From the NCBI RefSeq assembly GCF_000620505.1, contig NZ_JIBC01000011.1:1-64000 (forward strand): DNA of 64,000 nucleotides, given 5' to 3'. The notes below the pieces were generated by a model. It did no database searches. It was not told the DNA's origin and was given only the letters and a program-made list of their open reading frames with translations. The position numbers were made by a program, and so were the translations under genes. The DNA comes from Sulfitobacter sp. 20_GPM-1509m. Its GTDB lineage: Bacteria; Pseudomonadota; Alphaproteobacteria; Rhodobacterales; Rhodobacteraceae. This document shows positions 48,761 to 64,000 of this stretch, in pieces (positions within the stretch are counted from its first letter, which is position 1; the number at the start of each line of letters is the position of its first letter).

Positions 48761-49042
48761 ATGCTCAGACATCGCCTCAGCCGCCTCTTGCCCGCCGCTA
48801 CAACCCTGGCGACACTCGCCACGCCAGCTCTCGCGCAAGACTTGTCTCCCATCCAGACCATGCTCGAGACCGTCGAGGCCGCGCTGACCGGTCCGATCGG
48901 GATTGCGGTCTCCACGCTCGCCGTCATTGGCACCGGTTTCATGTGCATGATGGGGCGGTTGAACTGGGGCTGGTTCGCATCCGTCATCATCGGGATCGTG
49001 CTAATCTTCTCGGCCGGCACCATCGTTGACGGCTTCTCCTGA
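48761..49042 (+). CDS. virB2: VirB2 pilin
   Basis: 93 residues: signal peptide ending TPALAQ, then a short mature part with two hydrophobic helices (ALTGPIGIAVSTLAVIGTGFMCMMG and WFASVIIGIVLIFSAGTIVDGF), the VirB2/TrbC pilin layout. It polymerises into the T-pilus. Confidence 0.9.
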   Translation: MLRHRLSRLLPAATTLATLATPALAQDLSPIQTMLETVEAALTGPIGIAVSTLAVIGTGFMCMMGRLNWGWFASVIIGIVLIFSAGTIVDGFS

Positions 49043-49174
49043 TGTGCCGGAGCATCACTGTGACAATCCCGCAAAACGGAATCCTGCGATCAACTCGAAC
49101 GCGTTGTGCTGCGCAAACGCTGCCTCGAGCCGACCTGCGGATTCACTTGCAACTCTAAGCAGGGACGCATCAAA

Positions 49175-49453
49175 GTGGCAGAACGATCCCCCCTCTTTCT
49201 AGGCCTCGCCCGACCGCCCAAGTATCTGGGCCTCCCTGTCGGATACCTCGTGGTGCTGGCGACCGGGGTCGTTCTGCCGTTCATCTGGACGAAGTCGATG
49301 GTCTTTTTCCTGATCGGGATCATTGCCTATCCGATCCTCTGGTTCGTCGCCGACCGCGAACCGCATTTCTTCGAAGTACTGCGGGTCTCCTACGGCTCGG
49401 TGCGCCCGACGAAGAACCGGGCCCTGCACGGAGGCGATAGCTTTGGCGCTTGA
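49175..49453 (+). CDS. virB3: VirB3 inner-membrane protein
   Basis: 92 residues from GTG 49175; the part of the open frame before it (CLEPTCGFTCNSKQG) is not VirB3-like. It has the VirB3 opening LFLGLARPPKYLGLPVGY, then one long hydrophobic region that can form two helices. VirB3 associates with VirB4 at the inner membrane. Its end overlaps the VirB4 start. Confidence 0.88.
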   Translation: MAERSPLFLGLARPPKYLGLPVGYLVVLATGVVLPFIWTKSMVFFLIGIIAYPILWFVADREPHFFEVLRVSYGSVRPTKNRALHGGDSFGA

Positions 49454-51821
49454 TGCGGGCACACTTTCCACTCACGGACCCGCCCTGCTTCAAGCGGGCG
49501 GTGGAGAGTTCGCGCGGGAGAGCTATCTCGCCGAACACTTGCCGTATTTCGCGCTCGCGGATGACGATGTCATGGTCCTGCGCGAGGGCGACCTTATGGC
49601 GACCCTGCGCCTCGATGGTCTGAACCCGATGACCAGCGAAGACGCCCGGCTCGATGCGCTCAAACGCGCGGTTGCGGCCATCGTCGCCCAGACCGGCAAT
49701 GCCTTCGGCTTCTACATCCACCGCATCTCCGTGCCACAGGATCTCGGGATGCGTGCAATTGAGGGCGACAGCTTCGCTGCCGCGATCGACGCGCGCTGGC
49801 AGTCACACGTGAAGGACCTGCGTCCAGCCAAGCGCCAACTCTATCTCAGCGTCATCCGGCGGCCCGATATCACCGCGCGCATCCCGCTCCTACGGGCGCT
49901 GGCCCGCAAGGCCTGGGTCAAGGACCGTGCGACCCGGATGCAGGAGCTGAATGAGGTCATGGGTTTCTTCGAAGTGGCGCTTGCCTCGGCCAATCCCTTA
50001 AGACTCACGAAGTCGGGCGGGGAATGGTTGGGCTATCTCAACACGCTGAACGCGGGCAGTTTCTCCCCCATCGCCTTCGGGCAAAGCGCCGTGCCGCTCT
50101 CGCACACGCTAAGCAATTGCCACGCTACCTTTGATGGCGACGTCGTCACCCTGACCGACGCCGTGACCGGTCAGGTCAAATACGGCGCGCTCTTTTCGAT
50201 GAAAACCTATCCGGCGCTCACCGACGTCACGCTGCTCGATGCGCTCGACCTGCCGCTCGACATCGTGCTGACGAATTCCTTCAGCCCGATCCCGAACAAC
50301 ATCATGGCCGAACGCATCCAGCGGATCATCCGTCAAATGCAGGCTTCCGACGATGCCGCCGTCTCCTTGCGGGAACAGCTCGGACAAGCCGCCGACGACC
50401 AGGAGGCGGGCCGCATTGCCTTCGGCGATCATCACCTCTCCATCGCGGTCTATGCGCCCGACCGCGACACGCTTGAGCGCGCTGCAGCCCAAATCAAGCG
50501 CGTCGGCCAGGAAATCATGTCAGTGGTCGTGCGCGAAAGCATGGCGCTGAAAGCCACCTACTTCGCGCAAAGCCCCGGCAATTTCGGCTACCGCGCCCGC
50601 AAGACGCCGATCTCCTCGATCAACTTCGCCGACTTCGCCGCCCTTCACGGCAGCGTCGAAGGGCGCGGTCCTGATCAGTCGCCTTGGGGCCAGACTATCT
50701 CTGTGCTGCCGACGGTCGGCACCTCAGGCTATCGCTTCAACTTCCACGAGGCGGGAAGCCTGGGCAAGGAACCGACCGTTGGCCACACCCTTGTGTTGGG
50801 TCGCACAGGCACCGGCAAGACGCTCACTACCGCCTTCCTCGCGACGCAGGCGCAGCGGGTCGGCGCACGGCTTTTCTTTTTCGATAAGGACCGTGGCCTC
50901 GAGATGGCCGTTCGCGCCCTTGGCGGCCGCTACAACGAAATCCGTGCCGGGGTGCCCTCGGGCTTGAACCCCCTCAATACCGAAATCGATGAACGTGGCC
51001 GCGCCTGGCTGTCGGACTGGCTTTCGACCCTACTTTCCCGGAGCGGAACCCTCACCGGCGAGCAATCCCGCCACATCCAGAGCGCGGTCGCGCAAAATGC
51101 TCATGCCGAGGGTTCGCTTCGGCGATTTGCGAGTTTCGAGACCCTGTTCCAGTCCCTTGATGACGATGGCGAGCTGCAGTCCCGTGTCGCCGAATGGGCC
51201 CCGGGCGGACGCTATGGCTGGGTGTTCGACGAGCCAGAATATGGCACGGGGCTTGAACTGGCCTCCGACATCATCGGCTTCGACATGACCGAGATCCTCG
51301 ACATGACCACCGAGCGCATGGCGGTGCTCTCCTACATCTTCCGGCAGATCGAACGCGTGGTCGAGGATCGCCGTCCCACCATCATCGTGCTCGACGAGGC
51401 CTGGAAGCTCTTGGACGATCCGTATTTTGGGGCAAGGCTGGAAAACTGGCTGGTGACCCTGCGCAAAATGAACTGCGTCGTGATCATGATGACGCAGTAT
51501 CCGAGCCAGTTGCGCGACAGCCGCGTTGGCAAGACCATCGTCGAGACGGTTCCGACCCAGATCCTCTTCCCGAACGATCGCGCCACAATTTCGGATTATG
51601 ACTTCCTGCGCGTAAATGCAAAGGAGGCCGCCCTCCTCGTCCAGCCAACTATCGGCCAGCGCATCGCGCTCGTCCGCTCGGCAGGTGACAGTGTATTCGT
51701 CGATGCGGATCTTTCCGCATTTGGTGACCTCCTCCCCATCCTTGGCGGCGGTGCCACCGGCGAAGCCCGCGTGCCTGCCGATTGGCGCTCCGATCCCGAT
51801 TTCTGGAGACATGTGACATGA
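49443..51821 (+). CDS. virB4: VirB4 ATPase
   Basis: 792 residues from TTG 49443, which has GGAGG eight bases upstream and gives the usual VirB4 length. Domains: N-terminal CagE/TrbE/VirB half, then the P-loop ATPase with Walker A GRTGTGKT (about residue 454) and Walker B IIVLDEAWKLLDDP (about 645), followed by the typical MTQYPSQLRDSRVG and PTQILFPN. VirB4 powers pilus assembly and substrate transfer at the cytoplasmic face. It overlaps both neighbours. Confidence 0.95.
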   Translation: MALDAGTLSTHGPALLQAGGGEFARESYLAEHLPYFALADDDVMVLREGDLMATLRLDGLNPMTSEDARLDALKRAVAAIVAQTGNAFGFYIHRISVPQDLGMRAIEGDSFAAAIDARWQSHVKDLRPAKRQLYLSVIRRPDITARIPLLRALARKAWVKDRATRMQELNEVMGFFEVALASANPLRLTKSGGEWLGYLNTLNAGSFSPIAFGQSAVPLSHTLSNCHATFDGDVVTLTDAVTGQVKYGALFSMKTYPALTDVTLLDALDLPLDIVLTNSFSPIPNNIMAERIQRIIRQMQASDDAAVSLREQLGQAADDQEAGRIAFGDHHLSIAVYAPDRDTLERAAAQIKRVGQEIMSVVVRESMALKATYFAQSPGNFGYRARKTPISSINFADFAALHGSVEGRGPDQSPWGQTISVLPTVGTSGYRFNFHEAGSLGKEPTVGHTLVLGRTGTGKTLTTAFLATQAQRVGARLFFFDKDRGLEMAVRALGGRYNEIRAGVPSGLNPLNTEIDERGRAWLSDWLSTLLSRSGTLTGEQSRHIQSAVAQNAHAEGSLRRFASFETLFQSLDDDGELQSRVAEWAPGGRYGWVFDEPEYGTGLELASDIIGFDMTEILDMTTERMAVLSYIFRQIERVVEDRRPTIIVLDEAWKLLDDPYFGARLENWLVTLRKMNCVVIMMTQYPSQLRDSRVGKTIVETVPTQILFPNDRATISDYDFLRVNAKEAALLVQPTIGQRIALVRSAGDSVFVDADLSAFGDLLPILGGGATGEARVPADWRSDPDFWRHVT

Positions 51822-52027
51822 GTTTGAAACCCCACTTCGTCCTTTGCGCCGCCGCTGGCCTCCTTTCGGCGTGTGAGACATACACCGAACAGACCTCGCC
51901 CTGCTTCGGACGCGATGGCGAACCGCAGGTCACGCGGGCCGCGCTTTCCTTCTCGACCATGGGCGAACCGGTTGAGGAGCCGTCCAAGCCCGACTGCAGC
52001 TTCGAGCCCCTGCCCCGTCCGGAATGA
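51818..52027 (+). CDS. Small lipoprotein of the secretion operon (possible VirB7 role)
   Basis: 69 residues with a lipobox LLSAC after a short hydrophobic segment (MSLKPHFVLCAAAGLLSAC), so lipid-anchored to the outer membrane. The mature part is short, with two more cysteines and many acidic and proline residues. Starts overlap the VirB4 stop (ATGA) and end overlaps the next start. Size and lipid anchor fit VirB7, which stabilises VirB9, although it lies earlier than VirB7 usually does and no clear VirB7 homology is visible. Confidence 0.65.
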   Translation: MSLKPHFVLCAAAGLLSACETYTEQTSPCFGRDGEPQVTRAALSFSTMGEPVEEPSKPDCSFEPLPRPE

Positions 52028-53136
52028 GCCGCGCCGCGATTATATCCGCCGGGCTCTGCCTTGGCCTCGGTGCCCTGCCTGCGTTCGCCCAAGGCGTGCC
52101 GACGCAGGACAATTCCGCGATCGGCCGCGCCATCGCGCGGGTGACAGCACTCGCCGAGGACCTGGGCGTCCAGCAGGACAAAAACGGCACCGAGACGACC
52201 CTGGCCGATGTCCAGGCCGACCAGCTACGCGTACTTGAGGAGATGACGGCGGCCATCTCCGGGCCCGGCTTCGATATCCGCGTGCTCGAGAGCAATGCGG
52301 ATTTCGGAGTGGCGGCCGTCTATCCCAGTACCGACCCGAACCCGATGAACAACCGCCTCTTTGGCGAGGGTCGCGAGACCGTCGAGATTATGATCGTCGA
52401 GGTCGCGGACGAGTTCGCAGGCGCCCCCGGCGTGGCCCGCACAGGCCTCTCAGCCACCCAATGGCGCTGCCTCTTCCAGGCCCTGATCAAGCAGGAAAGC
52501 CGCTTCAATGTCGCCGCACAAAGCCCGGTTGGAGCCTATGGGCTGACCCAGCTCATGCCCGGCACCGCCTCCGACCTTGGCGTCGACCGCTACAACGTGA
52601 AGGACAACCTGCGCGGCGGCGCGCGTTACATCACCACGCAACTGAATCGCTTCGGCAACATCCCCCATGCACTCGCGGCCTATAACGCGGGACCTGGCCG
52701 GGTCATCGAATACGGCGGCGTGCCGCCTTTCGCCGAGACCCAAGGTTACGTGCGCAACATCTCGAAGTTCTACAACGAATACCTCGCTGTCGTGGATGGC
52801 GCCGACGCGCTCGGCACGCTCTCGCCTTCGGACTTTGCACTCGCCGAATATGCCAGCATCTCCGAGGCGGGCGTCTATTACGCGGCCGACAGCTCCGCAA
52901 CCACGGAACAGGTGATCAACCGCCTGGTCGCGATCATCCTGCAGATCGACGCCCAGCCCAATGCCAAGGCGGCCTGGGAGCTCAACACCTATGCCAAGGC
53001 CGAGATCGGCCGCATCCTCAACCTCCGCGTCCGGCTGATGGCCGCAAACCAGCAGCGCGAGGCGGCCTATGCGCAGCACCTCGTCGCTGACCGGCTCACT
53101 GAGCGCGATTTCATGCAAATGGGAGTTCCCGAATGA
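52024..53136 (+). CDS. VirB5-like/lytic transglycosylase hybrid
   Basis: 370 residues. Signal peptide (SRAAIISAGLCLGLGALPAFA), then GVPTQDNSAIGRAIARVTALAEDLGVQ, which resembles the beginning of the next gene's VirB5-like protein. From about residue 140 comes an SLT domain with catalytic Glu about 158 (LIKQESRFNVAAQSPVGAYGLTQLMPGTA) and AYNAGPGRVIEYGGVPPF. The last 100 residues are alpha-helical and again VirB5-like (VINRLVAIILQIDAQPNAKA, LRVRLMAANQQREAAYA). So a peptidoglycan-cutting domain seems inserted in a VirB5-type frame. It is coupled to both neighbours by start/stop overlaps. The operon already has a separate VirB1 gene. Confidence 0.75.
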   Translation: MSRAAIISAGLCLGLGALPAFAQGVPTQDNSAIGRAIARVTALAEDLGVQQDKNGTETTLADVQADQLRVLEEMTAAISGPGFDIRVLESNADFGVAAVYPSTDPNPMNNRLFGEGRETVEIMIVEVADEFAGAPGVARTGLSATQWRCLFQALIKQESRFNVAAQSPVGAYGLTQLMPGTASDLGVDRYNVKDNLRGGARYITTQLNRFGNIPHALAAYNAGPGRVIEYGGVPPFAETQGYVRNISKFYNEYLAVVDGADALGTLSPSDFALAEYASISEAGVYYAADSSATTEQVINRLVAIILQIDAQPNAKAAWELNTYAKAEIGRILNLRVRLMAANQQREAAYAQHLVADRLTERDFMQMGVPE

Positions 53137-53900
53137 AACGACTTCTTCTGACCGCCGCCGCGGTTACAACGCTCGGGCTCTCAGGCCCCGCCACGGCCCA
53201 GGGTGTCCCAACCTTTGACGGCTCGGCGCTACAGCAGTTCGTGGCGCAGCTCGAACACATGGCCGAAGACTTGAACGTCCAGATGCAACAGCTGACCACA
53301 ATGCGGCTGGAGTTGGAAACCCAGCTGTCGCAACTGACGAACCTCGAAGCGCAACTGACTTCGTTGATCGAGGGCAGCGGCTTGGGCGAGCTCTTCGCAA
53401 CGGTCGAAGAATTCCGCGCGCTGCGCGGCAAGCTGGTGGCCCCGCTGAATACCGCGCAATCCTTGGCCAGCGGCGATTTCCTGAGTGGCTTCAATCCCGG
53501 CGCTGAGCTATCGGCCTCGGTCGAACGGGTGCTCTCCGGCAGTGGCTTCACCTCGGAACGGTTGACCACGCTGTCGGGATCGGATCAGCCCGCCGACAAC
53601 CGCATCGCGACCTCGGCCGGGGCCAGCGCCATGCTCTCCGTCGCCGCGCAGGAAAGCCACGAGGAGGCCGGCCAAAGCCTCGGGCGGCTCGAGACCATGG
53701 TCGGGCTGATCGACGATCAGGACGGGCTGAAAGCCGCCGTCGATCTCAATACCCGCGTCACCGCCGAGCTCGGCATCATCCTGACCCAGATCTGGCGGCT
53801 GGAAGCGGCCCAGGGTGTCAGCGCCGGTCAGCTCGGCGTCGTCGATGCCGCGACCCTCGCGGATGAGCGCAAGTTCCGGTCGATGGCGGTGGATCCATGA
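53133..53900 (+). CDS. virB5: VirB5-like minor pilus component
   Basis: 255 residues with a Sec signal peptide (MKRLLLTAAAVTTLGLSGPATAQ). It opens with GVPTFDGSALQQFVAQLEHMAEDLNVQMQQL and is mainly alpha-helical and glutamine-rich, with helices expected about residues 30-80 and 170-235, which fits VirB5/TrbJ. VirB5 sits at the pilus tip and aids contact with recipient cells. It sits between the transglycosylase hybrid and a small secreted protein with four-base overlaps. Confidence 0.82.
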   Translation: MKRLLLTAAAVTTLGLSGPATAQGVPTFDGSALQQFVAQLEHMAEDLNVQMQQLTTMRLELETQLSQLTNLEAQLTSLIEGSGLGELFATVEEFRALRGKLVAPLNTAQSLASGDFLSGFNPGAELSASVERVLSGSGFTSERLTTLSGSDQPADNRIATSAGASAMLSVAAQESHEEAGQSLGRLETMVGLIDDQDGLKAAVDLNTRVTAELGIILTQIWRLEAAQGVSAGQLGVVDAATLADERKFRSMAVDP

Positions 53901-54334
53901 AGATGAGATCGTTCCGCCACCTCCCCGAGTTTCGGTGCCTTGGTCTTGCAGCGCTTGTCGTGAGTGCCCTGCCCTGTGCCGCGCTGGCCCAGGCCCCGAC
54001 CACGGACCTGTCCAGCAATACGCCCTTCAGCACGATGGCCATCGCGCGGGACGAGGGCGACGCCTGCCGTGTCCCGAAACCGCCCGTCGAGCTGGCCGAG
54101 ACAGCCTATGTTCGGAATGGTTACCGCGCGATCATGAGACTGATGGCTGCAGAGAGATGGCAGAAGACAGGGTCGTGTGAATGCTTTTTGGAGACGATTT
54201 CTTGGGAGGAAGTCATCGAGCAGTCAGACGCATTCAAAGTTTCCGATGACCCCCGCCGACCTTTCGATGTGTCCGACCTGAGGCAACGAGCAGATGCCAT
54301 ACTGGCTCAGCGTGATCAGGCCTGCGTCGACTAA
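53897..54334 (+). CDS. Exported hypothetical protein between virB5 and virB6
   Basis: 145 residues with a signal peptide ending about AALAQAPTTD. The mature part contains a cysteine motif (GSCECFLETISWEEV) and two other cysteines. I recognise no family. In several conjugative systems the gene between virB5 and virB6 encodes an entry-exclusion protein or a VirB7-like component, so a similar role is conceivable. The second half (from about 54120) is less GC-rich than its surroundings. Confidence 0.6.
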   Translation: MKMRSFRHLPEFRCLGLAALVVSALPCAALAQAPTTDLSSNTPFSTMAIARDEGDACRVPKPPVELAETAYVRNGYRAIMRLMAAERWQKTGSCECFLETISWEEVIEQSDAFKVSDDPRRPFDVSDLRQRADAILAQRDQACVD

Positions 54335-55362
54335 TGGGCATCATACGCGATATCCTGAGTCAGGTCGATGTTGCTGTGAATACCGTGGCGCAGGACGGCT
54401 TTATCTCTTCGGCCGCCTCGGTCGGCAACGTCATCTCGGCGGGTGCGACACTGCTCCTCGTGCTTCTGGGCATCAACGCCGTAATGCAACTGCGCCCTCT
54501 GCCCTTCGGTACCGGTTTCGCCTTTGGCGTGAAGGTCGCGCTCGTGGGGATCTTCGCGCAAAGTTGGGCCAACTTCAGCGTCATCTATGATATCGTCACG
54601 GACGTTCCTGACAGCATAGGTGCGGCTATCCTCGACCTGACCGCAACTGGCGACGAAGCTGGGATCTATGAAAGCCTCGACAATATGGTCGCGCGTATCA
54701 CCGCCTATGGCGACACGATCGGCGACCGCGCGGGCTGGGTCTTCGGCGCGGTCCTGGGCGCGATCTTCTTCGTGCTTTCCGCCGTCTTTGCCGCCGTCAC
54801 CGCCGGGATCATCGCCTTTGCCAAAATCGTCTTCGCGCTGATGATCGTCATCGCACCCTTCATGATCATGACCTCGCTGTTTAAACCGACCCAATCCCTC
54901 TTCGAGGCCTGGACCCGCGCCACCATCGGCTATGCGCTCATGCCCGTCGCGGCCGCAGGCGCGGCGGGCATTATCGTTGCGATCGCAGAGGCCATCGGGG
55001 ATGCTTCCGCCGACCCCGGCGATGTCGAGACCGTCAGCCTCATCCTGCCCTTCCTCGTGATCTTGATCCTCAGCGCCGGGATCATGGCCTCGGTCCCCTA
55101 CATCGCGTCCAACTTGACCGGTGTCGTCGGCATTGCCTCCAACGCCGTGGGTCTGACCGGCCTCGCGCGGCAGGGTTTCGTGAACACGCGCCAATATGGC
55201 ACCGGCGCAACCGCGCGCCTCGTCACCGGCAAGTCCCCGCATGAGCTGAACCAGATGGCCAATGCGGGTGTGGTGAAGACCGGCGAGATGATCCGGCAAA
55301 GCCCCGGCGCGCTTCTCTCCGCCGCCAAGACCTTCCGCAAACCAGATTTGAAAGACGACTGA
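54334..55362 (+). CDS. virB6: VirB6 polytopic channel protein
   Basis: 342 residues with about six hydrophobic segments: VISAGATLLLVLLGINAVM, AGWVFGAVLGAIFFVLSAVFAAVTAGIIAF and further ones to about residue 270, then a soluble tail. The pattern and position match VirB6/TrbL. It forms part of the inner-membrane channel. Shares one base with the preceding stop. Confidence 0.9.
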   Translation: MGIIRDILSQVDVAVNTVAQDGFISSAASVGNVISAGATLLLVLLGINAVMQLRPLPFGTGFAFGVKVALVGIFAQSWANFSVIYDIVTDVPDSIGAAILDLTATGDEAGIYESLDNMVARITAYGDTIGDRAGWVFGAVLGAIFFVLSAVFAAVTAGIIAFAKIVFALMIVIAPFMIMTSLFKPTQSLFEAWTRATIGYALMPVAAAGAAGIIVAIAEAIGDASADPGDVETVSLILPFLVILILSAGIMASVPYIASNLTGVVGIASNAVGLTGLARQGFVNTRQYGTGATARLVTGKSPHELNQMANAGVVKTGEMIRQSPGALLSAAKTFRKPDLKDD

Positions 55363-55363
55363 C

Positions 55364-56044
55364 TTGAAGAAGCTTGTGACCAGTTCTCCCGCGCCCGACC
55401 GGGACGCATTTGAAGCGGATTTCATCTACGGGCCGAGGCGGCGCGAGCGCTTTGCCTGGTTCGTCGCGGCGGCGGGCGTGCTGGTCGGCGTGGCCGGACT
55501 GGTCGCAGGCGCGAGCCTCTTTCCCCTCAAAACGACCGAGACCTTCGTGGTCGTGGTCGACAAGGAAACCGGCGAGATGGACCGGGTGGCCGCGGTTCAG
55601 GCGCTGACCCTTTCCGAGAGCGACGCCATCATTCAGGCCAATCTCGTAGCCTATGTCGACGATCGCGAGACCTATGACCTGACCGATGGTGAGCAACGTA
55701 TCAATGGAGTGCTCGACCGTTCGGACGGCGATGCCGCCCGCACATTGCGCGATCTCTGGTCCTCGACCAATGAGGACTACCCGATTACCGTCTATGGCCG
55801 CGACGCCAAGATCGAAGTGGTGATCAAGTCGGTGAACCAGATCGAGCGCGGCGTGGCCCAGGTCCGCTTCACCCGCACGCTGCGCCGCCCGCGCGACACG
55901 CGCACTGTCACCCGGCCTTACGTCGCTACGGTCGGCTACGACTTCCAACCCGAAACCCGCCAGCGCCTTCAGGACGTCTGGGCCAATCCCTTGGGCTTCG
56001 TGGTGACCTCCTACCGCGTTGACGCCGAGACCCTGGAGAACTGA
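55364..56044 (+). CDS. virB8: VirB8 core component
   Basis: 226 residues from TTG 55364 (a GTG at 55376 is an alternative). One N-terminal membrane helix (AWFVAAAGVLVGVAGLVAGA) and a periplasmic NTF2-like domain with ETFVVVVDKETGEMDRV, YDLTDGEQRINGVL and DAKIEVVIKSVNQIERGVAQVRFTR. VirB8 nucleates assembly and contacts VirB9 and VirB10. Confidence 0.92.
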   Translation: MKKLVTSSPAPDRDAFEADFIYGPRRRERFAWFVAAAGVLVGVAGLVAGASLFPLKTTETFVVVVDKETGEMDRVAAVQALTLSESDAIIQANLVAYVDDRETYDLTDGEQRINGVLDRSDGDAARTLRDLWSSTNEDYPITVYGRDAKIEVVIKSVNQIERGVAQVRFTRTLRRPRDTRTVTRPYVATVGYDFQPETRQRLQDVWANPLGFVVTSYRVDAETLEN

Positions 56045-56049
56045 CCCTC

Positions 56050-56772
56050 ATGAAATCCCTGCCCGCGCTCCTCCTAACGCTTGCCTTCCCTATGACCGCA
56101 CTCGCCGAGGCCACGCCCCAGGGCGGGTCGCTCGACATCCGCATCCGAACCGCCGTCTATAACGAAAACCAGGTTTACCGGATCGAAACCGATCTAAGGC
56201 ATTCGACCACGATTCATTTCGGGGCAGGTGAGCGGTTCGAGGCGGTGATTGTCGGCGACACCGAGAGCTTCCAGGTCGATCCGATCCCCGAGCTTGGCAA
56301 CGTGCTGACCATCAAGCCGCATGTGGCCAAGGCTGAGACCAACATGACGGTGATCACCAACCGCCGCACCTATTCCTTCCATCTGCGCGAGGGCTCGATC
56401 CCAAACCGCACCGGCATGTTCTTCGAGGTGCGCTTCCGCTACCCCGATGAGGAACGCCGCGCGGCGGGTGCCACCCAGCCCAAGGGCTATGATGCGCCGC
56501 GCAACTACAACTACCGCGTCTCGGGGATCGGCGACTTCCGCCCCAGCCATATCTATGACGACGGGCGCTATACGTATTTCGTCTTCCCGGAGAACGGTCG
56601 ACAGCCAGCGCTTTTCAAGGCCGATGACCAGGGCCGTGAGCGCACGGTGAACTGGACCCAGCAAGGCAACACCGTCCGCGTGCTCGGGGTGAACACCTAC
56701 TGGACACTGCGCATCGGTGACGAAGCGATCTGCGCCTGGCGCGACGAAAGCGCGATCTACGTGAGCAACTGA
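56050..56772 (+). CDS. virB9: VirB9 outer-membrane core component
   Basis: 240 residues: signal peptide ending TALAEA, then DIRIRTAVYNENQVYRIETDLRHSTTIHFGAGE, TIKPHVAKAETNMTVITNRRTYSFHLRE and the C-terminal domain NYNYRVSG, DDGRYTYFVFPEN. These are characteristic for VirB9/TrbG. With VirB10 and a VirB7-type lipoprotein it forms the outer-membrane ring. GGAG of the preceding gene's end serves as ribosome site. Confidence 0.93.
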   Translation: MKSLPALLLTLAFPMTALAEATPQGGSLDIRIRTAVYNENQVYRIETDLRHSTTIHFGAGERFEAVIVGDTESFQVDPIPELGNVLTIKPHVAKAETNMTVITNRRTYSFHLREGSIPNRTGMFFEVRFRYPDEERRAAGATQPKGYDAPRNYNYRVSGIGDFRPSHIYDDGRYTYFVFPENGRQPALFKADDQGRERTVNWTQQGNTVRVLGVNTYWTLRIGDEAICAWRDESAIYVSN

Positions 56773-56774
56773 CC

Positions 56775-58199
56775 ATGGCCGATCAAACCCCTCCCGATCT
56801 GCAGGACCGCCTCGATCAATTCAGCCAGCGCGGCAAATCCAAGCGCCGGGGCAACAGCCTCGGGGTCGGCGCGCTCGCCGCTGCCCTCGCCCTGGGCGGC
56901 GCCGGGGTCGCGTATTTTCTGGCAACCGGCCTGCAGGAGAGTGACAGCGCCCTCGAGACTTCCGATGTCGAGACCTTCCAGGATCGCCGCCCCGGTACCG
57001 GTGGACGGTTGGAGTTCCCTCCCGACGAGACCGAGCAAAGGGTCAATGACGCGCTGATCGCCGTCGAGGAGGCCCTCGACGTGCCCGCCGCCCCTGCCCC
57101 GGAACCGAGCGCCGAGGTGCTGGCGGAGATCGCCAAACTGCGCGAAGCCCTCGCCGCCAGCCAGTCCACCCGCAATTCGGAAATACAGTCCGCCGTCGCG
57201 GACCTGCGCGAGGCCTTCGACGAGCAGAAGGCCGCGCTGGAAGCCACTCTGGCCGCAAAGGAGGTCGAGCTTGCCAATCTGCAGCGCCAGACCGAGTCCC
57301 GGTTAGAAGGGCTGCAATCCATGCTCGATGCCGAACGGGCGCAGCGCGAAGGGCTCGAGGCCGAACTTGACCGCGAAGGGCTGATCGCCGACCAACGCCT
57401 TCTTGAGGAACGCCGTCGTCAGGAAGAGGAACAACGACAACGCGAGGCCGAGAGGGTCGCCGAGGAGCTTCTGACCGCGCAGATCAAATCCCCCGCGGTG
57501 GTCTATGCCGATGGTCCCCGCGGGGGTGCGAATGGCGCGGCGGTGACCGACCCTGCTGCCACTGGCACCGGTGTAACGATGCTCTCGGGCAATGAGCGGT
57601 TCCTGCAGAGCGCGCCACCGCTCGAGGTGCAGGAGGCCGCCCGCCTCACCCATCCCGAGCGCACGCTGACCCAGGGTTCGGTCGTCCAGGCGGCCTTGCA
57701 GACCGCCATCAACAGCGACCTGCCCGGGTCCGTCGTCGCGGTGGTGAATGAACCGGTTCCGGCGTTTTCCGGGGACCGGATCCTGATCCCCCGGGGTTCC
57801 CGCCTTTTTGGCCAATATCGCTCCGGGATCGACATGCACCAAAAGCGTATCCTGATCCGTTGGACCCGCGTCCTGACCCCGGACGGCACCTCGATGGAGA
57901 TCGCCGCCGTGGGCGGGGACCAGCTGGGCCGCTCGGGCCTGACCGGCCTGGTCGACAACAAGTTCGCCGAACGCTTCGGCGGGGCAGCGTTGATTTCCGT
58001 GATCGGGGCGGCACCAGCCGTCGCGGCCGAGAGCAGCAACAATGAGACCACCAGCATCGTTCTGGGCGATGTCGGCAGCGACCTTCAGGATGCGGTCGGG
58101 TCGGTCATCGCCGACCAAGTCTCAATCGCGCCGACGATCTATGTCGATCAGGGCGCATCGGTGAGCGTACTCGTCGACCGGGATGTGGTGATCTATTGA
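56775..58199 (+). CDS. virB10: VirB10 envelope-spanning core component
   Basis: 474 residues: short cytoplasmic part, one membrane helix (GVGALAAALALGGAGVAYFLATG), a long coiled-coil/charged periplasmic region (about residues 90-240, many Glu, Gln, Arg), then the beta-barrel domain with LTQGSVVQAALQTAINSDLPG, RILIPRGSRLFGQYRSG and FAERFGGAALISVIG. It transmits energy from the inner-membrane ATPases to the outer-membrane pore. Confidence 0.95.
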   Translation: MADQTPPDLQDRLDQFSQRGKSKRRGNSLGVGALAAALALGGAGVAYFLATGLQESDSALETSDVETFQDRRPGTGGRLEFPPDETEQRVNDALIAVEEALDVPAAPAPEPSAEVLAEIAKLREALAASQSTRNSEIQSAVADLREAFDEQKAALEATLAAKEVELANLQRQTESRLEGLQSMLDAERAQREGLEAELDREGLIADQRLLEERRRQEEEQRQREAERVAEELLTAQIKSPAVVYADGPRGGANGAAVTDPAATGTGVTMLSGNERFLQSAPPLEVQEAARLTHPERTLTQGSVVQAALQTAINSDLPGSVVAVVNEPVPAFSGDRILIPRGSRLFGQYRSGIDMHQKRILIRWTRVLTPDGTSMEIAAVGGDQLGRSGLTGLVDNKFAERFGGAALISVIGAAPAVAAESSNNETTSIVLGDVGSDLQDAVGSVIADQVSIAPTIYVDQGASVSVLVDRDVVIY

Positions 58200-59179
58200 C
58201 CGAGGCCGGATCACCAGCGTCGTATCTCGAACGTTATCTCGACCCGTTCCGCGACCTCCTGAGGCGCGACGACGTGGTCGAGATCGCGATCAATCCGGAC
58301 GGCAAGGTCTGGCTCGAGGTGGCGGGCGACGCCACCATGCGCCACGAAGGCCAGACCGTGGACCGTACCACGGCCCTCAACATGGCCCAAACCATTGTCG
58401 GCGATGCCAAGGCCCGCGTCTCTGAAAAGAACCCGCTCGTCTCCGGCAAGGTGGAATATGCAGGCCGTCCGCTTCGGGTCCAGGTCGCTGTGCCACCCGC
58501 CATCGATCGCGGCGCATCGATCACGATCCGCCTCTTCGCCTCGGGCAGCGTCAGGGACTACGCCCCGACCTATCTGTTCGGCAAGGCCGTCTCGCTCGAC
58601 GCCCTCCGCGCTGAAAAGATGAAGAACATCGCCCAACTTGCCGAGGAAAACCTTGAGGGTGCACTTCAAACCTTGGTCGAGGCGCGATTGAACGTCCTGA
58701 TCAGCGGCGGCACATCGACCGGCAAGACCACCTTCGCACGGCACCTTCTGACCCATGTGGGCGAACACGAGCGGCTGATCACCATCGAGGACGCGTTCGA
58801 GCTCTTACCCAGCCAGCCGAACACCGTCGCACTTCTGGCCGACCGCGGAGCCGGTTCGCAACGCAGCTCCAACGCCCTCCTTCAGGCTTCCCTCCGCATG
58901 CGCCCCGACCGGATCATCGTCGGCGAGCTGCGCGGTGCCGAGGCCCTGACCTATCTCGAGGCAATCAACACCGGCCATGGCGGATCTGTCTCGACCATCC
59001 ATGCCGAGACCGCAGAACTCGCCATCGACCGGCTGGCAATCATGGTGCTTCAGGCCGGCACGCTGCTGACCTTCGCCGAGGTGCGGGAATACATTCGGAA
59101 GTCCATCGACGTGATCGTTCAGCTCGGGCGGGCCGAGGGAAGTCGCGGGATTACGGAGTTTTATTTGCCGGGAAAGTGA
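58196..59179 (+). CDS. virB11: VirB11 hexameric ATPase
   Basis: 327 residues from TTG 58196 (overlaps VirB10 stop). Walker A GGTSTGKTTF at about residues 170-179, Asp box ITIEDAFEL, Walker B RIIVGELRGAEAL and His box GHGGSVSTIHAET. VirB11 works with VirB4 and the coupling protein to drive assembly and transfer. Last recognisable virB gene; virD4 and a relaxase are not in this window. Confidence 0.95.
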   Translation: MTEAGSPASYLERYLDPFRDLLRRDDVVEIAINPDGKVWLEVAGDATMRHEGQTVDRTTALNMAQTIVGDAKARVSEKNPLVSGKVEYAGRPLRVQVAVPPAIDRGASITIRLFASGSVRDYAPTYLFGKAVSLDALRAEKMKNIAQLAEENLEGALQTLVEARLNVLISGGTSTGKTTFARHLLTHVGEHERLITIEDAFELLPSQPNTVALLADRGAGSQRSSNALLQASLRMRPDRIIVGELRGAEALTYLEAINTGHGGSVSTIHAETAELAIDRLAIMVLQAGTLLTFAEVREYIRKSIDVIVQLGRAEGSRGITEFYLPGK

Positions 59180-59364
59180 GACAGCTCGTCGTTCAGAAGC
59201 AATCAGGCAGAAACTGCGGCGCTGTGGCCATCACGGATTCTATCGTTCAGGGAAAACTCGACGACGCGCAGCAACAGGCGGCACGCACCGTCAATTTGTA
59301 TCTGTCAAAACGGGCTGATCAAAAATCAGATGCAAGTATGGACTTCCAGACTAACTTCCACTAA
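59176..59364 (+). CDS. Doubtful small ORF at the virB/dnd junction
   Basis: 62 codons starting at a GTG that overlaps the VirB11 stop. The product (VVQKQSGRNCGAVAITDSIVQGKLDDAQQQAARTV) matches no family. Codon use is intermediate between its neighbours. The end of the frame holds a tandem CTAACTTCCA (59351-59369). It may be a real coupled small gene, the remains of another gene, or chance. Confidence 0.25.
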   Translation: MRQLVVQKQSGRNCGAVAITDSIVQGKLDDAQQQAARTVNLYLSKRADQKSDASMDFQTNFH

Positions 59365-59384
59365 CTTCCGGCTAGGAGGTATCC

Positions 59385-60470
59385 ATGGCAAATGAACTGA
59401 CCTTTGAAGCGATCCGGGGTGTGCAGTCTCGCACTGCTTACTACACCGTAATGGTGCCGATGAAAATGGTTCCACGCCTATTCATCTTCGATGGAGACGG
59501 TTTGCCGCCTGATCTTCGTGCACAACGTGTACTTTCGAAAGCAAGGGTTCCCCAAATTGCGAACTATCTGGCGGAAAATTGGGATAATTACATCCTATCC
59601 TCCCTTTGCGCTTCTGTAGACGGAGACCTCACGTTCACGCCAGCTGGTAGCGATGGTTCACTAAGAAATGTCGGCACCCTCAGTTTTGCTATGGATGCAC
59701 GCATTATCTTGAACGACGGTCAGCATCGCCGCGCAGCAATCGAAGAAGCCCTGAAGACCCGGCCTGCGCTAGAGAACGAGACTATTTCGGTCGTAGTTTT
59801 TGCGGATCGCGGACTGGGAAGAAGCCAGCAAATGTTTTCTGATTTAAACATGAACGCAGTAAGACCCTCGAATTCACTCAATATACTTTACGACAAGCGC
59901 GATCCACTTGCGGGACTATCTGTTGACGTATTTCGTCAGGTCCCTTTCTTTAATCGTTTTCTCGAGCTTGAAAAAAAATCTCTCTCAAATCGGACGACGA
60001 AACTTTACACGCTGTCAAGTTTGCAACAAGCGCATGAGTGGATGGTCGGTCCTACGGGTGATCGCTTTGGCGCTTCAACCCTCGATCGCGTCGTACAATT
60101 CTGGAATGTGCTTTATAACATCATGGACGATTGGCAACGGCTGGACGGGGGTAGTCTGAATGCACATGACCTCCGACAGAACACCGTACACTCCCACGGT
60201 GTTTTGTTGCAGTCGTTCGGCGTTCTTGGAGGATCTTTAATTGATGCATTTCCGGAGACATGGCCCGAGAAACTCCAATCACTGTCATCCTTGGACTGGT
60301 CACGACGCAATGCGACACTTTGGGAAGGTAAAGTAATGAATGACGCGCGTATGAATGGCCAACGCAGAAGCGTTCTACTTGGTGCAGCGATTCTGTTTGA
60401 AACGGTCGGTTTACCATTAGAACTCAGAATGAAAGCTGCGATCGACGCGCAGGGCCAGGTTGCGGCATGA
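59385..60470 (+). CDS. dndB: DndB, regulator of DNA phosphorothioation (DGQHR domain)
   Basis: 361 residues, with AGGAGG before the ATG. The diagnostic motif DGQHR is at residues 111-115 within ARIILNDGQHRRAAIEEAL, and SDLNMNAVRPSNSLNILYD follows as in DndB. DndB is not part of the modification chemistry itself; in studied systems it dampens dnd expression and adjusts modification level. The stop overlaps the dndC start (ATGA). The gene is visibly less GC-rich than virB11. Confidence 0.92.
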   Translation: MANELTFEAIRGVQSRTAYYTVMVPMKMVPRLFIFDGDGLPPDLRAQRVLSKARVPQIANYLAENWDNYILSSLCASVDGDLTFTPAGSDGSLRNVGTLSFAMDARIILNDGQHRRAAIEEALKTRPALENETISVVVFADRGLGRSQQMFSDLNMNAVRPSNSLNILYDKRDPLAGLSVDVFRQVPFFNRFLELEKKSLSNRTTKLYTLSSLQQAHEWMVGPTGDRFGASTLDRVVQFWNVLYNIMDDWQRLDGGSLNAHDLRQNTVHSHGVLLQSFGVLGGSLIDAFPETWPEKLQSLSSLDWSRRNATLWEGKVMNDARMNGQRRSVLLGAAILFETVGLPLELRMKAAIDAQGQVAA

Positions 60471-61915
60471 ACACAGACAAAAATGCAAATGCGCTAACCG
60501 CGCCACTCACCTTTGACGCGCTAGAAGAACGGGTCCGGGTCGCCTATTGCAACGATAATCGGCCTTGGGTCATCGGATATAGTGGCGGCAAGGACTCGAC
60601 ATGCGCACTACAGATGATCTGGCGCGCGCTACAAGCGCTACCAGAATCGGAACGGCAGAAACCGATTTACGTATTAAGCTCAGACACATTGGTCGAAACA
60701 CCCGTGATTGTGGACTATATCGATGAGGCGCTCGCGAAGATCAATAGCTCCGCCAAGGCACAAGGCATGCCAATTACGGCACATAAGGTCGTACCCGATG
60801 TTGGCGATAGCTTTTGGGTAAATCTAATAGGACGCGGCTATCCTGCACCTTCGCGGCGTTTCCGGTGGTGTACAGAGCGTTTGAAAATTGACCCCGCGAA
60901 TGCATTTATAAAAAGTCGGGTCGCAGAGTTTGGCGAAGTAGTTATGGTCCTCGGTGTGCGGAGCGCAGAAAGCGCAACACGAGCACAGGTCATGGCGCTA
61001 CACAAATTGGAAGGGAGCCTTTTTTCACGCCATTCATCGCTACTGGGCGCTTTTGTCTTCACGCCTATTGAAGCGCTGTCAGTTGATGATGTCTGGGATT
61101 ACATACTGCAAACACCCGCCCCTTGGGGAGCGGACAACCGCCAGTTGCTCAAAATGTATCGGAACGCTCAAGCAGGCGAATGCCCACTCGTCGTAGACAA
61201 GAACACGGAGAGCTGTGGCAACTCGCGATTTGGCTGTTGGGTGTGCACTGTCGTGACTAAAGACAAGGCCATGGAAGCTATGGTCGACAATGGAGAAGAA
61301 TGGCTCGAACCACTATTGGACGTCCGTGATTTCTTGGCGGAAACACTCGACCCGGAACGTAAGAAAGTTGTGCGCGACTTCCGCAGGCGAACTGGGCGCG
61401 TGACACTCAATCGCACTGGCGACGGTTTGGTCCCTGGCCCCTACAAATTCGAGTTCCGCCAGGAAGTTTTGAAGCGGTTGTTGGGAGCACAGAAGGAGGC
61501 TTCCAACCTTGTTGTGGACGAGCCAGCGCCAACGCTTATTCATGAGGCTGAGATTCACGAGATCCAGCGCATCTGGCGCAGAGAACTAGGAGATTGGGGG
61601 AACACCGCATATAGGATCGTCAAAGAAGAACTTGGCAATGACCTCTACGCTCAGAAAGCGGACGACTTCGAGTTTTCGTCAAGAGACGGCGACATCTTAC
61701 GTCAGGTTTGCGATGAGTATGAAATCTCATTGCAATTACTGAGTGAACTGCTCGATGCTGAACGATCCGTTCAAGGCATGCGTCGCCGGACGTCCATTCA
61801 TAATCGGATCGCTAGCATTCTCGAAAAAGAGTGGCGTTCGGAAGAAGAAGTGCTGGCTGATTTGGCAATCGATACCGAAGAAGGCGAACCTTCGGAAGAA
61901 GGATTAGTCAGATGA
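60467..61915 (+). CDS. dndC: DndC, ATP-dependent sulphur-transfer enzyme of DNA phosphorothioation
   Basis: 482 residues of the PAPS-reductase/ATP-pyrophosphatase fold. The P-loop SGGKDST lies at about residues 39-45 (GYSGGKDSTCALQM). Cysteines expected to hold the [4Fe-4S] cluster are RFRWCTERLK, ECPLVVDKNTESC and FGCWVCTVVT. DndC activates the DNA phosphate or carries the sulphur from a cysteine desulphurase. No dndA is present in the window, so a chromosomal IscS-type enzyme probably supplies the sulphur. Overlaps dndD by four bases. Confidence 0.95.
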   Translation: MNTDKNANALTAPLTFDALEERVRVAYCNDNRPWVIGYSGGKDSTCALQMIWRALQALPESERQKPIYVLSSDTLVETPVIVDYIDEALAKINSSAKAQGMPITAHKVVPDVGDSFWVNLIGRGYPAPSRRFRWCTERLKIDPANAFIKSRVAEFGEVVMVLGVRSAESATRAQVMALHKLEGSLFSRHSSLLGAFVFTPIEALSVDDVWDYILQTPAPWGADNRQLLKMYRNAQAGECPLVVDKNTESCGNSRFGCWVCTVVTKDKAMEAMVDNGEEWLEPLLDVRDFLAETLDPERKKVVRDFRRRTGRVTLNRTGDGLVPGPYKFEFRQEVLKRLLGAQKEASNLVVDEPAPTLIHEAEIHEIQRIWRRELGDWGNTAYRIVKEELGNDLYAQKADDFEFSSRDGDILRQVCDEYEISLQLLSELLDAERSVQGMRRRTSIHNRIASILEKEWRSEEEVLADLAIDTEEGEPSEEGLVR

Positions 61916-63852
61916 AATTCCGTGAAATAGCTTTGGAAAATGTTGGCCTCTACGTAGGAAAACACACTTTCAATCTGGAGACTGCGCCCACGGAAGGAGC
62001 TAATGTCGTTGCCATTCTAGGGCACAATGGCGGCGGGAAGACCACTTTTCTCGACTCGATCCGACTGGCTCTATATGGCCGTAGATCACTCGGTCCAAGA
62101 ACCGCTCAATCGACATATGAAGATCATCTTCTAAGAAAAATCAGTGCAACCGCTTCGTCTCGTGAGGCTGCAATCACACTTTCATTTGTGAGAGTAGAGA
62201 ACGGACGGGATATTTCATACGAAATTACGAGGGCTTGGTCAGCAAGAGGCAAATCAATCGTTGAAACGTTAGACCTTGTCAGGGAAGGTCAGCCGATTTC
62301 CGATCTGGACCGCACTGAGTACGCCCAGTACGTAGAAGACCTTGTTCCATTTGGTCTCTCTCAACTGTTCTTCTTCGATGGAGAAAAAATTCAGGAAATT
62401 GCGGATGAGGACGGCAGCGTCGGACTGCGAGATGCCATTCGATCTCTTCTCGGGTTGGACATTATTGACCAATTGCAAACTGACTTGACAGTCTACACCA
62501 GCCGCAGGGCGGATCAAAAGACATCTGGCAATATAGAACGCCTACTCGCAGAAAAAGAAACTTTACAAAAAGAGCTCGCGGCAGAACAAGATCGCCGTGC
62601 CGAACTACAGAGCAGGTGCGATCAAGCAGCCAGGCGCGTTGAGCGATCAGAAGCGGCATACCGTAGCGAAGGCGGCCGACATGCCCTGTCCCGCGAAGAT
62701 GCCCTTGCAAGACTTCGTTTGGCCGAAGATGAGCAGGCCGAACTGAGCTCACAGTTAAAGCGCGCAGCAAACGAACTCTTGCCGCTAAGCCTAGCCCCAC
62801 TCTTGGTACAACAGCTCCATCATAGGGCCAGTGAGGCGCGTCAGGGAAATCACTCGAATGCCATCCGAGATTTCGTCGATGCATTCGAGAAGCGATGCCG
62901 CACCGACAGATCGAAAATGAATATTTGGTCTGACAATCACTTCGATGATCTGCGTTCGGATTTCGGCACCGATAGAGGGGGGCAGAACATACACCTCTTT
63001 GCCGAGCCTGATTGGATTCTTCAAAGACTCGGCTTGCTCTCTGACGGTCGCCAGAACCTCATGGCACAACTCGCCGCTAAATTTGACCGAAATCGGGAGC
63101 TTAGGGCCAAACTCAAGAGAGAACTGGAGGGTTTCGACACGGGACAAGCTGAAAAGGCACTTGCAGATCTGAAAGAAGCTGAGCGCACACTCGGCGGGTT
63201 AGAACGTGATCTGGAGTTCCGTGATGAAGCAATCGATCGAAAGTTGCGAGAGCTGGACACGGTTGAGCGTCGTTTCAAGCAGGAGGAAAACGCACTGAAA
63301 AAGCTAGCGCAGGAGGAGAGAGGTTCAGCTTTCGCTCTACGTGCTCAGAGCGCGCTCGCTTCTTTTGGCAGCGCATTGCTGAAGGATCGTATCAGCCGAC
63401 TGCAATCCGAATTCGTCGGATGTTTCAATCGCCTAAGTCGCAAGAAGTCCTTGGTTTCCAAAGTCGAGATCAACCCAACCGACTTTAGCGTAATCCTGAT
63501 AGGCAGTGACGGCGATACGATCGAGAAGAGCAGCCTATCAGCGGGCGAACGTCAGATATATGCGATCTCCATGCTTTGGGCGCTCGGTAAAACGAGCGGG
63601 CGTCAATTGCCGATCGTGATTGACACCCCGTTCTCGCGGCTCGACCAATCCCATCGGCTCTCGATCGTGCGAGATTATCTGCCAACGGCAAGCAACCAAG
63701 TGATCTTGCTTTGCACCGATACAGAGATGACGCCAACTCTTGCTGAGACCCTTACGCCACATATCGCCCGGACCTACAAACTGGAAGCGACGACGGACGC
63801 CAGGAGAACATCCGTATCATCAGTAAATGACCTGTACGAGGAACTCGTCTGA
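61912..63852 (+). CDS. dndD: DndD, SMC-like ATPase of DNA phosphorothioation
   Basis: 646 residues. Walker A GHNGGGKTTF (about residues 37-46), a long coiled coil with many Glu/Arg/Leu/Ala heptads (about 195-300 and 400-490), the ABC signature SLSAGERQIYAISMLWAL and Walker B LPIVIDTPFSRLD, in the RecF/SMC arrangement. DndD probably nicks or remodels DNA for sulphur insertion by DndC and DndE. Ends TGATG with dndE. Confidence 0.95.
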   Translation: MKFREIALENVGLYVGKHTFNLETAPTEGANVVAILGHNGGGKTTFLDSIRLALYGRRSLGPRTAQSTYEDHLLRKISATASSREAAITLSFVRVENGRDISYEITRAWSARGKSIVETLDLVREGQPISDLDRTEYAQYVEDLVPFGLSQLFFFDGEKIQEIADEDGSVGLRDAIRSLLGLDIIDQLQTDLTVYTSRRADQKTSGNIERLLAEKETLQKELAAEQDRRAELQSRCDQAARRVERSEAAYRSEGGRHALSREDALARLRLAEDEQAELSSQLKRAANELLPLSLAPLLVQQLHHRASEARQGNHSNAIRDFVDAFEKRCRTDRSKMNIWSDNHFDDLRSDFGTDRGGQNIHLFAEPDWILQRLGLLSDGRQNLMAQLAAKFDRNRELRAKLKRELEGFDTGQAEKALADLKEAERTLGGLERDLEFRDEAIDRKLRELDTVERRFKQEENALKKLAQEERGSAFALRAQSALASFGSALLKDRISRLQSEFVGCFNRLSRKKSLVSKVEINPTDFSVILIGSDGDTIEKSSLSAGERQIYAISMLWALGKTSGRQLPIVIDTPFSRLDQSHRLSIVRDYLPTASNQVILLCTDTEMTPTLAETLTPHIARTYKLEATTDARRTSVSSVNDLYEELV

Positions 63853-64000
63853 TGCATTTTACAAAACTCAGAGTATCCTCGGAGGCTACCGGTCGCCTGA
63901 GAATGCTGAGGCAACGCAGCGGCCTTACGCCAAACCTGTTATGCCGCATGGCGCTAACCTCATCTCTGGAGATGGGTCCAGTGGGCGGAATGGTTGCACC
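63852..64000 (+). CDS. dndE: DndE, N-terminal part (cut by window end)
   Basis: 49 codons from ATG 63852. The visible part FTKLRVSSEATGRLRMLRQRSGLTPNLLCRMALTSSLE matches the DndE beginning, which has RxxTGLTPNxLCR. DndE is a small basic tetrameric protein that binds nicked DNA in the modification complex. The restriction genes often linked to dnd (dndFGH or pbe) would lie beyond 64000, if present. Confidence 0.88.
   Translation, partial: MHFTKLRVSSEATGRLRMLRQRSGLTPNLLCRMALTSSLEMGPVGGMVA

Follow-up and report, generated by a model that had tools for sequence, protein, structure and literature searches.

A predicted DndBCDEA-PbeABCD phosphorothioation cassette in a cargo slot between virB11 and virD4 of a probable Rhodobacterales conjugative plasmid

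A dnd operon that begins directly behind the last gene of a VirB secretion operon raises the question of whether DNA modification and secretion are functionally joined or whether one merely travels with the other. In the 64,000-nucleotide stretch of Sulfitobacter DNA analysed here (hereafter the window; bases 1-64000 of the 165,998-bp contig C9), dndB follows virB11 on the same strand, and dndB/C, dndC/D and dndD/E are joined by ATGA, ATGA and TGATG overlaps. Rechecking of the coordinates confirmed both of these points, which had been made in an earlier note on this DNA, and added a further 4-base overlap joining dndE to dndA. The island genes beyond position 64000 were read on C9 (Table 1). 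We consider it highly probable that the locus is a complete phosphorothioate defence cassette lodged in an exchangeable slot between the convergent virB11 and virD4 genes of a Rhodobacterales conjugative plasmid.

Table 1. Features of the virB11-virD4 region and of the plasmid around it (positions beyond 64000 are those of C9)
Feature	Coordinates	Strand	Evidence or remark
virB operon (virB2, B3, B4, lytic transglycosylase, B5, B6, B8, B9, B10, B11)	48761-59179	+	
virB11	58196-59179	+	left arm of the cargo slot
Left slot edge	59173-59179	+	homology ends within the last virB11 codons, after ...EFYLPG
62-aa ORF after virB11	59176-59364		no Pfam match; not counted as a gene
Spacer	59180-59337		common only to G001 and G003 (same junction); absent from G002, G004 and G005
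Triple direct repeat	59341-59369	+	GACTTCC-AGACT-AACTTCC-ACT-AACTTCC; 16-44 bp before the dndB ATG
dndB	59385-60470	+	TIGR03233 400 bits, PF14072 372 bits
dndC, PAPS-reductase-like sulfurtransferase	60467-61915	+	TIGR03183 535 bits, PADLOC DndC 644 bits
dndD, ABC ATPase	61912-63852	+	TIGR03185 477 bits; without CxC hook
dndE	63852-64226 (window stops at 64000 inside the gene)	+	TIGR03184 86.5 bits
dndA, cysteine desulfurase	64223-65395, past the window end	+	PADLOC DndA 418 bits, Aminotran_5
orf5, GmrSD protein	65398-67224	-	Orf5 1384 bits
pbeD, 172 aa	67236-67754	-	position, size, conservation
pbeC, ATPase	67751-69691	-	CVC hook at residue 327; PbeC/DndD models 53-60 bits
pbeB, 67 aa	69672-69875	-	placed between pbeA and pbeC
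pbeA, HKD nuclease-helicase	69872-71848	-	PADLOC PbeA 647 bits; PF04851 ResIII, PF00271 Helicase_C; H-x-K motif
DGQHR protein gene, upstream of pbeA	72207-73466	-	TIGR04172 543 bits
Membrane protein gene (186 aa), upstream of pbeA	73463-74023	-	
virD4	74316-76247 on C9	-	
Relaxase	76244-78169 on C9	-	
repABC replicon	107-110.5 kb of C9		

The products of dndB, dndC, dndD and dndE all exceed the curated NCBIfam cut-offs, with PADLOC and Pfam concurring, while DndA falls under its NCBIfam cut-off (355 versus 480 bits) yet is a clear desulfurase by PADLOC. As dndA directly follows dndE, the plus-strand operon is dndBCDEA. A motif check found no CxC motif in DndD, which gave only weak Rad50 matches against the PDB; the same search returned no match for DndB or for PbeC. 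Judged by these homologies, dndBCDEA is a predicted DNA phosphorothioation system with all five genes present.

A second operon, orf5-pbeD-C-B-A, faces the dnd operon from the minus strand. The note had advised looking beyond the window's end for dndFGH or another restriction module; a scan of ten island proteins (59.4-73.5 kb) gave no match to DndF, DndG or DndH, and in their place PbeABCD and the GmrSD protein are the predicted restriction partner. The PbeB candidate lacks a Pfam match and is kept in all five related genomes G001-G005. The PbeD candidate, conserved as far as a Firmicutes MAG, matched no HMM and its hhalign comparison to DndE was not significant, so that its assignment draws on gene position, protein size and conservation. 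For this 172-aa protein and for the membrane protein of 186 aa, structure prediction from a single sequence gave models of too low quality for use (pLDDT 53 and 58). Given that gene order, domains and sizes correspond to PbeA-B-C-D and that DndF/G/H matches are lacking, the island genes are, by sequence criteria, a bacterial DndBCDEA-PbeABCD system, which is an already known kind. An identity as SspABCD-SspE was ruled out by the scores (Orf5 1384 versus SspE 77 bits for the GmrSD protein; DndC 644 versus SspD 41). The module on the pbeA side varies among close relatives: the DGQHR and membrane protein genes of C9 match those of Rhizobium L016 and Hyphomonas L017, while G001 and G003 have a 353-aa membrane/methyltransferase protein instead and G005 a related 382-aa protein.

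Among the closest known counterparts is the DndCDEA-PbeABCD system of Haloterrigena jeotgali (PMC6459918), which likewise combines dndCDEA with pbeABCD in the same internal order and whose Pbe proteins agree with those here in domain content and length (PLD-ResIII-helicase, 66-67 aa, AAA ATPase, 152-172 aa). Unlike it, the system described here is bacterial and plasmid-borne, possesses dndB (absent in the archaeal set), has its two operons converging, and includes extra genes for GmrSD (Orf5), DGQHR and membrane proteins. Excerpts of PMC10853773 report that 22% of Dnd-bearing taxa have a DndD system beside a CxC-type ATPase system; the PbeC of C9 likewise has the CVC hook of the CxC clade, and those excerpts of the tandem DndDE and CxC-ATPase systems do not describe this exact vir-slot setting. 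Both Dnd-Pbe systems and defence hotspots are known kinds, and the present dnd-pbe set is an ordinary member of its family.

The earlier proposal that the cassette is cargo of a conjugative element held up: beyond the cassette come virD4 and a relaxase gene, and C9 also carries a repABC replicon. With the virB set, virD4, relaxase and replicon all present, C9, a contig that is not closed, is probably a conjugative plasmid. The island measures 15.1 kb and fills the whole gap between virB11 and virD4. Its third-position GC is near 0.5 as against nearly 0.8 in the vir genes, a contrast that marks it as foreign to the plasmid backbone. Comparable modules have been described in Dinoroseobacter shibae, whose RepABC plasmids carry virB and virD2/virD4 modules according to excerpts of PMC4886583 and PMC9426580; transfer of the 191- and 126-kb plasmids was shown experimentally, and on the 102-kb plasmid virD2/virD4 (Dshi_6068-6069) and the run from VirB11 onward (Dshi_6080-6088) are separated by ten loci. 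These plasmids carry other cargo, and in the same excerpts the gap is not described as a cargo slot.

We examined the virB11-virD4 gap across related replicons. Each of the two flanking blocks, virB and virD4-relaxase, recurs at about 88-89% identity in more than 30 Rhodobacterales plasmids, and wherever both are found side by side, other genes stand between them. A sample of 41 gaps (26 from PLSDB plasmids, 12 from genomes, and those of the window, G003 and G005) contained cargo in every case, ranging from 2.7 to 24.2 kb with a median of 8.8 kb and sorting into 28 unrelated clusters; the gene adjoining virB11 in other plasmids may lie on either strand. Both edges of the slot are sharp: on the left, compared in 25 plasmids, the window, G001 and G003, homology ends within the last virB11 codons, and on the right it ends at the virD4 stop codon. 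With conserved flanks and many unrelated cargos at one site, the gap is a hotspot as judged from these alignments; our search of the open-access literature found no published description of it.

Annotation and HMM labels identify a recognisable defence system in 24 of the gaps and in half (14/28) of the clusters. These include Hachiman, three kinds of CBASS, Lamassu and Lamassu-like systems, a Druantia/DISARM-like set, SMC/Mre11 with TIR (with or without a SIR2-ATPase), a PaeR7I restriction-modification set, TIR/HET genes, dCTP deaminase with ubiquitin-like genes, ABC-three-component genes, an Aga nuclease pair and dnd-pbe itself. The non-defence cargo includes mercury/copper resistance, styrene and phenylacetate catabolism and benzoate catabolism. 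A small control, some 90 kb of two plasmids away from the slot, contained toxin-antitoxin and metabolic genes and no annotated anti-phage system.

Several cargo genes drew our attention in their own right. In ten slots whose other cargo differs (L044, L045, L046, L050, L054, L062, L125, L132, L133 and L137), a gene for a DUF2235/Tle1-like phospholipase, possibly an effector or a defence gene, adjoins the virD4 stop. The cargo at L130:1450-7723, mostly without a PADLOC match, combines a calcineurin-like phosphoesterase bearing a GTPase-associated adaptor domain with NTPase-like genes and is possibly an undescribed defence system. The smallest slot (2.7 kb) is nearly filled by the gene for a 733-aa protein for which neither Pfam nor PADLOC gave a match (L134:6684-8882).

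The histories of cargo and flanks can be compared. Plasmids with the same cargo are 92-97% identical across it, while, near-identical replicons excepted, their flanks are 86-92% (virB11) and 83-89% (virD4) identical and hence no more alike than those of plasmids with different cargo (medians 89.7% and 84.7%). Some different-cargo pairs have one flank 98-100% identical and the other only 80-87%, as in L047/L050 (virB11 100%, virD4 80%) and L125/L132 (virD4 99.7%, virB11 86.7%). Cargo and flanks therefore have separate histories, and slot cargo appears to have been swapped by recombination between the conserved vir genes, a mechanism that we infer from these patterns. When the window is compared with G003 (window 54334-64000 and C9 to 78884), identity is about 87% in virB, 98-99% from dndD to orf5 and again 87% in virD4; the rise within dndD-orf5 is a sign of recent exchange inside the cassette as well.

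The dnd-pbe unit itself recurs in several settings. In Pseudorhodobacter wandonensis (G001) and Jannaschia helgolandensis (G003) it stands at the same virB11 junction in the same orientation, while in an uncultured Roseobacter (G005; virB11 66% identical) it is inverted within the slot so that dndB is next to virD4. In Celeribacter (G002) and Aliiroseovarius (G004) an 88% identical unit is found in large, apparently chromosomal contigs, where its neighbours are a pet operon and genes of the TniB/TniQ type. The shared unit begins at position 59338, by the triple repeat, and extends to 71777, where pbeA starts; G002 and G004 have identical boundaries, and G005 has nearly the same ones.

The repeat at the left boundary, with CTTCC starting at 59343, 59355 and 59365 (spacing 12 and 10), has the general form GACTTCC-N5-AACTTCC-N3-AACTTCC. 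It occupies the same place, 16-44 bp ahead of the start codon, in each of the eight aligned dndB genes and again in two further genomes, with unrelated sequence farther upstream; in the G005 copy one base of the middle unit is changed. The chance expectation is 0.01 such repeats per window, and more distant alphaproteobacterial dndB genes are preceded by other sequences. We propose it as a candidate local DndB operator. The Salmonella DndB motif is TACGN10CGTA (PMC4507180), and an operator of that type was rejected as no such sequence occurs in 59001-59500.

These observations bear on the idea that dnd is tied functionally to the secretion operon, with the virB promoter transcribing dnd, as the earlier note had suggested might be so, and dnd marking DNA for transfer. 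The shared strand, the gap of only 205 bp and the recurrence of the junction in two other genera speak for it, as does the region between the genes, where neither a strong terminator nor a consensus promoter is apparent: a search for a sigma-70 consensus promoter ahead of dndB came up empty, scans for promoters and terminators at both slot junctions gave nothing above shuffled sequences, and a lone terminator-like match before dndB was at chance level. However, other plasmids hold unrelated cargo in the same place, often on the opposite strand; the unit has the opposite orientation in G005 and lies apart from virB in G002, G004, G006 and G007; and a near-identical virB11 accompanies dndC in just the present one of 16 sampled dndC-bearing Rhodobacteraceae genomes. 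The triple repeat, moreover, accompanies dndB whatever stands upstream and is independent of virB; taken with the inverted copy, this speaks against dnd transcription simply continuing that of virB. We regard the functional tie as very improbable and the view of dnd as an extension of the virB operon as unsupported, while noting that some read-through from virB11 into dnd may occur, given that no strong terminator was found.

The slot might be filled by a site-specific integrase or a targeted transposon recognising the 3' end of virB11, in the manner of Tn7 at glmS, instead of by a swap through flanking homology. The virB11 codons at which the junction falls are indeed almost the same from plasmid to plasmid, and the same cassette occurs as cargo beside Tn7-like genes in G002 and G004. 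Against this, no integrase or transposase common to the slots was found, the window's two slot edges share no direct or inverted repeats of at least 10 bp, and the one-sided flank identity better fits homologous recombination; we judge such targeted insertion unlikely. It is also conceivable, though we doubt it, that a neutral gap between convergent genes simply tolerates any insertion and that its dnd neighbour has no further meaning. About half of the 28 cargo types being metabolic, metal resistance or unclassified would agree with such neutrality, but the occupation of all 41 slots, the recurrent exchange, and the many unrelated defence systems as against none annotated in the small two-plasmid control point away from it. 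We lean slightly towards the virB11-virD4 gap being a dedicated exchange slot for defence cargo across Rhodobacterales conjugative plasmids, in which whole anti-phage systems, dnd-pbe included, would be swapped between genera by recombination in the vir genes; on this reading, the slots of further plasmids would yield new defence systems.

For the chemistry, restriction, regulation and behaviour on transfer of the cassette we can offer a model by analogy. DndA would, by homology, supply sulphur, and DndCDE would write sparse phosphorothioates into plasmid and host DNA, while DndB would restrain the dnd operon from the repeat that precedes its gene. PbeABCD (HKD nuclease-helicase, small protein, CxC ATPase and DndE-like partner) and GmrSD are predicted to block unmarked phage or plasmid DNA. 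Phosphorothioate-dependent antiviral action of PbeABCD is known for H. jeotgali only, where it is active only with phosphorothioate and non-toxic without it (PMC6459918). Should the bacterial proteins be equally inert and harmless in the absence of phosphorothioate, a naive recipient could receive the cassette and not come under attack. At the level of the plasmid, recombination in the conserved vir genes on either side could exchange the cargo with transfer functions left unharmed.

The interest of the locus, then, lies in the slot rather than in the virB-dnd junction, and the slot corrects the view of dnd as part of the secretion operon: related plasmids carry different gene sets at the same place, with anti-phage systems making up about half of the cargo types. 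A fixed site among the transfer genes of a widespread family of marine plasmids, filled again and again with unrelated defence systems, would explain the movement of such systems between roseobacter genera, and it offers a search address for new ones. Tn7-like transposons are a known safe-site vehicle for defence systems, with Dnd in 14 cases (PMC8649781), and TniB/TniQ genes adjoin the closely related dnd-pbe unit in G002 and G004; unlike such transposons, the window's slot is without Tn7-like genes and its swapping resembles homologous recombination.

Elsewhere on C9 we observed an OLD-type ATPase/nuclease gene with a UvrD-like helicase gene behind it, an arrangement resembling Gabija (C9:98928-103003), and an AbiEi/AbiEii pair adjoining a transposon with TniQ and a Mu-type transposase (C9:89017-94214). 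The contig that bears repABC and virB also carries flagellar-type genes (FliP-, FliI- and FlhA-like by eye) at C9:134067-145863.
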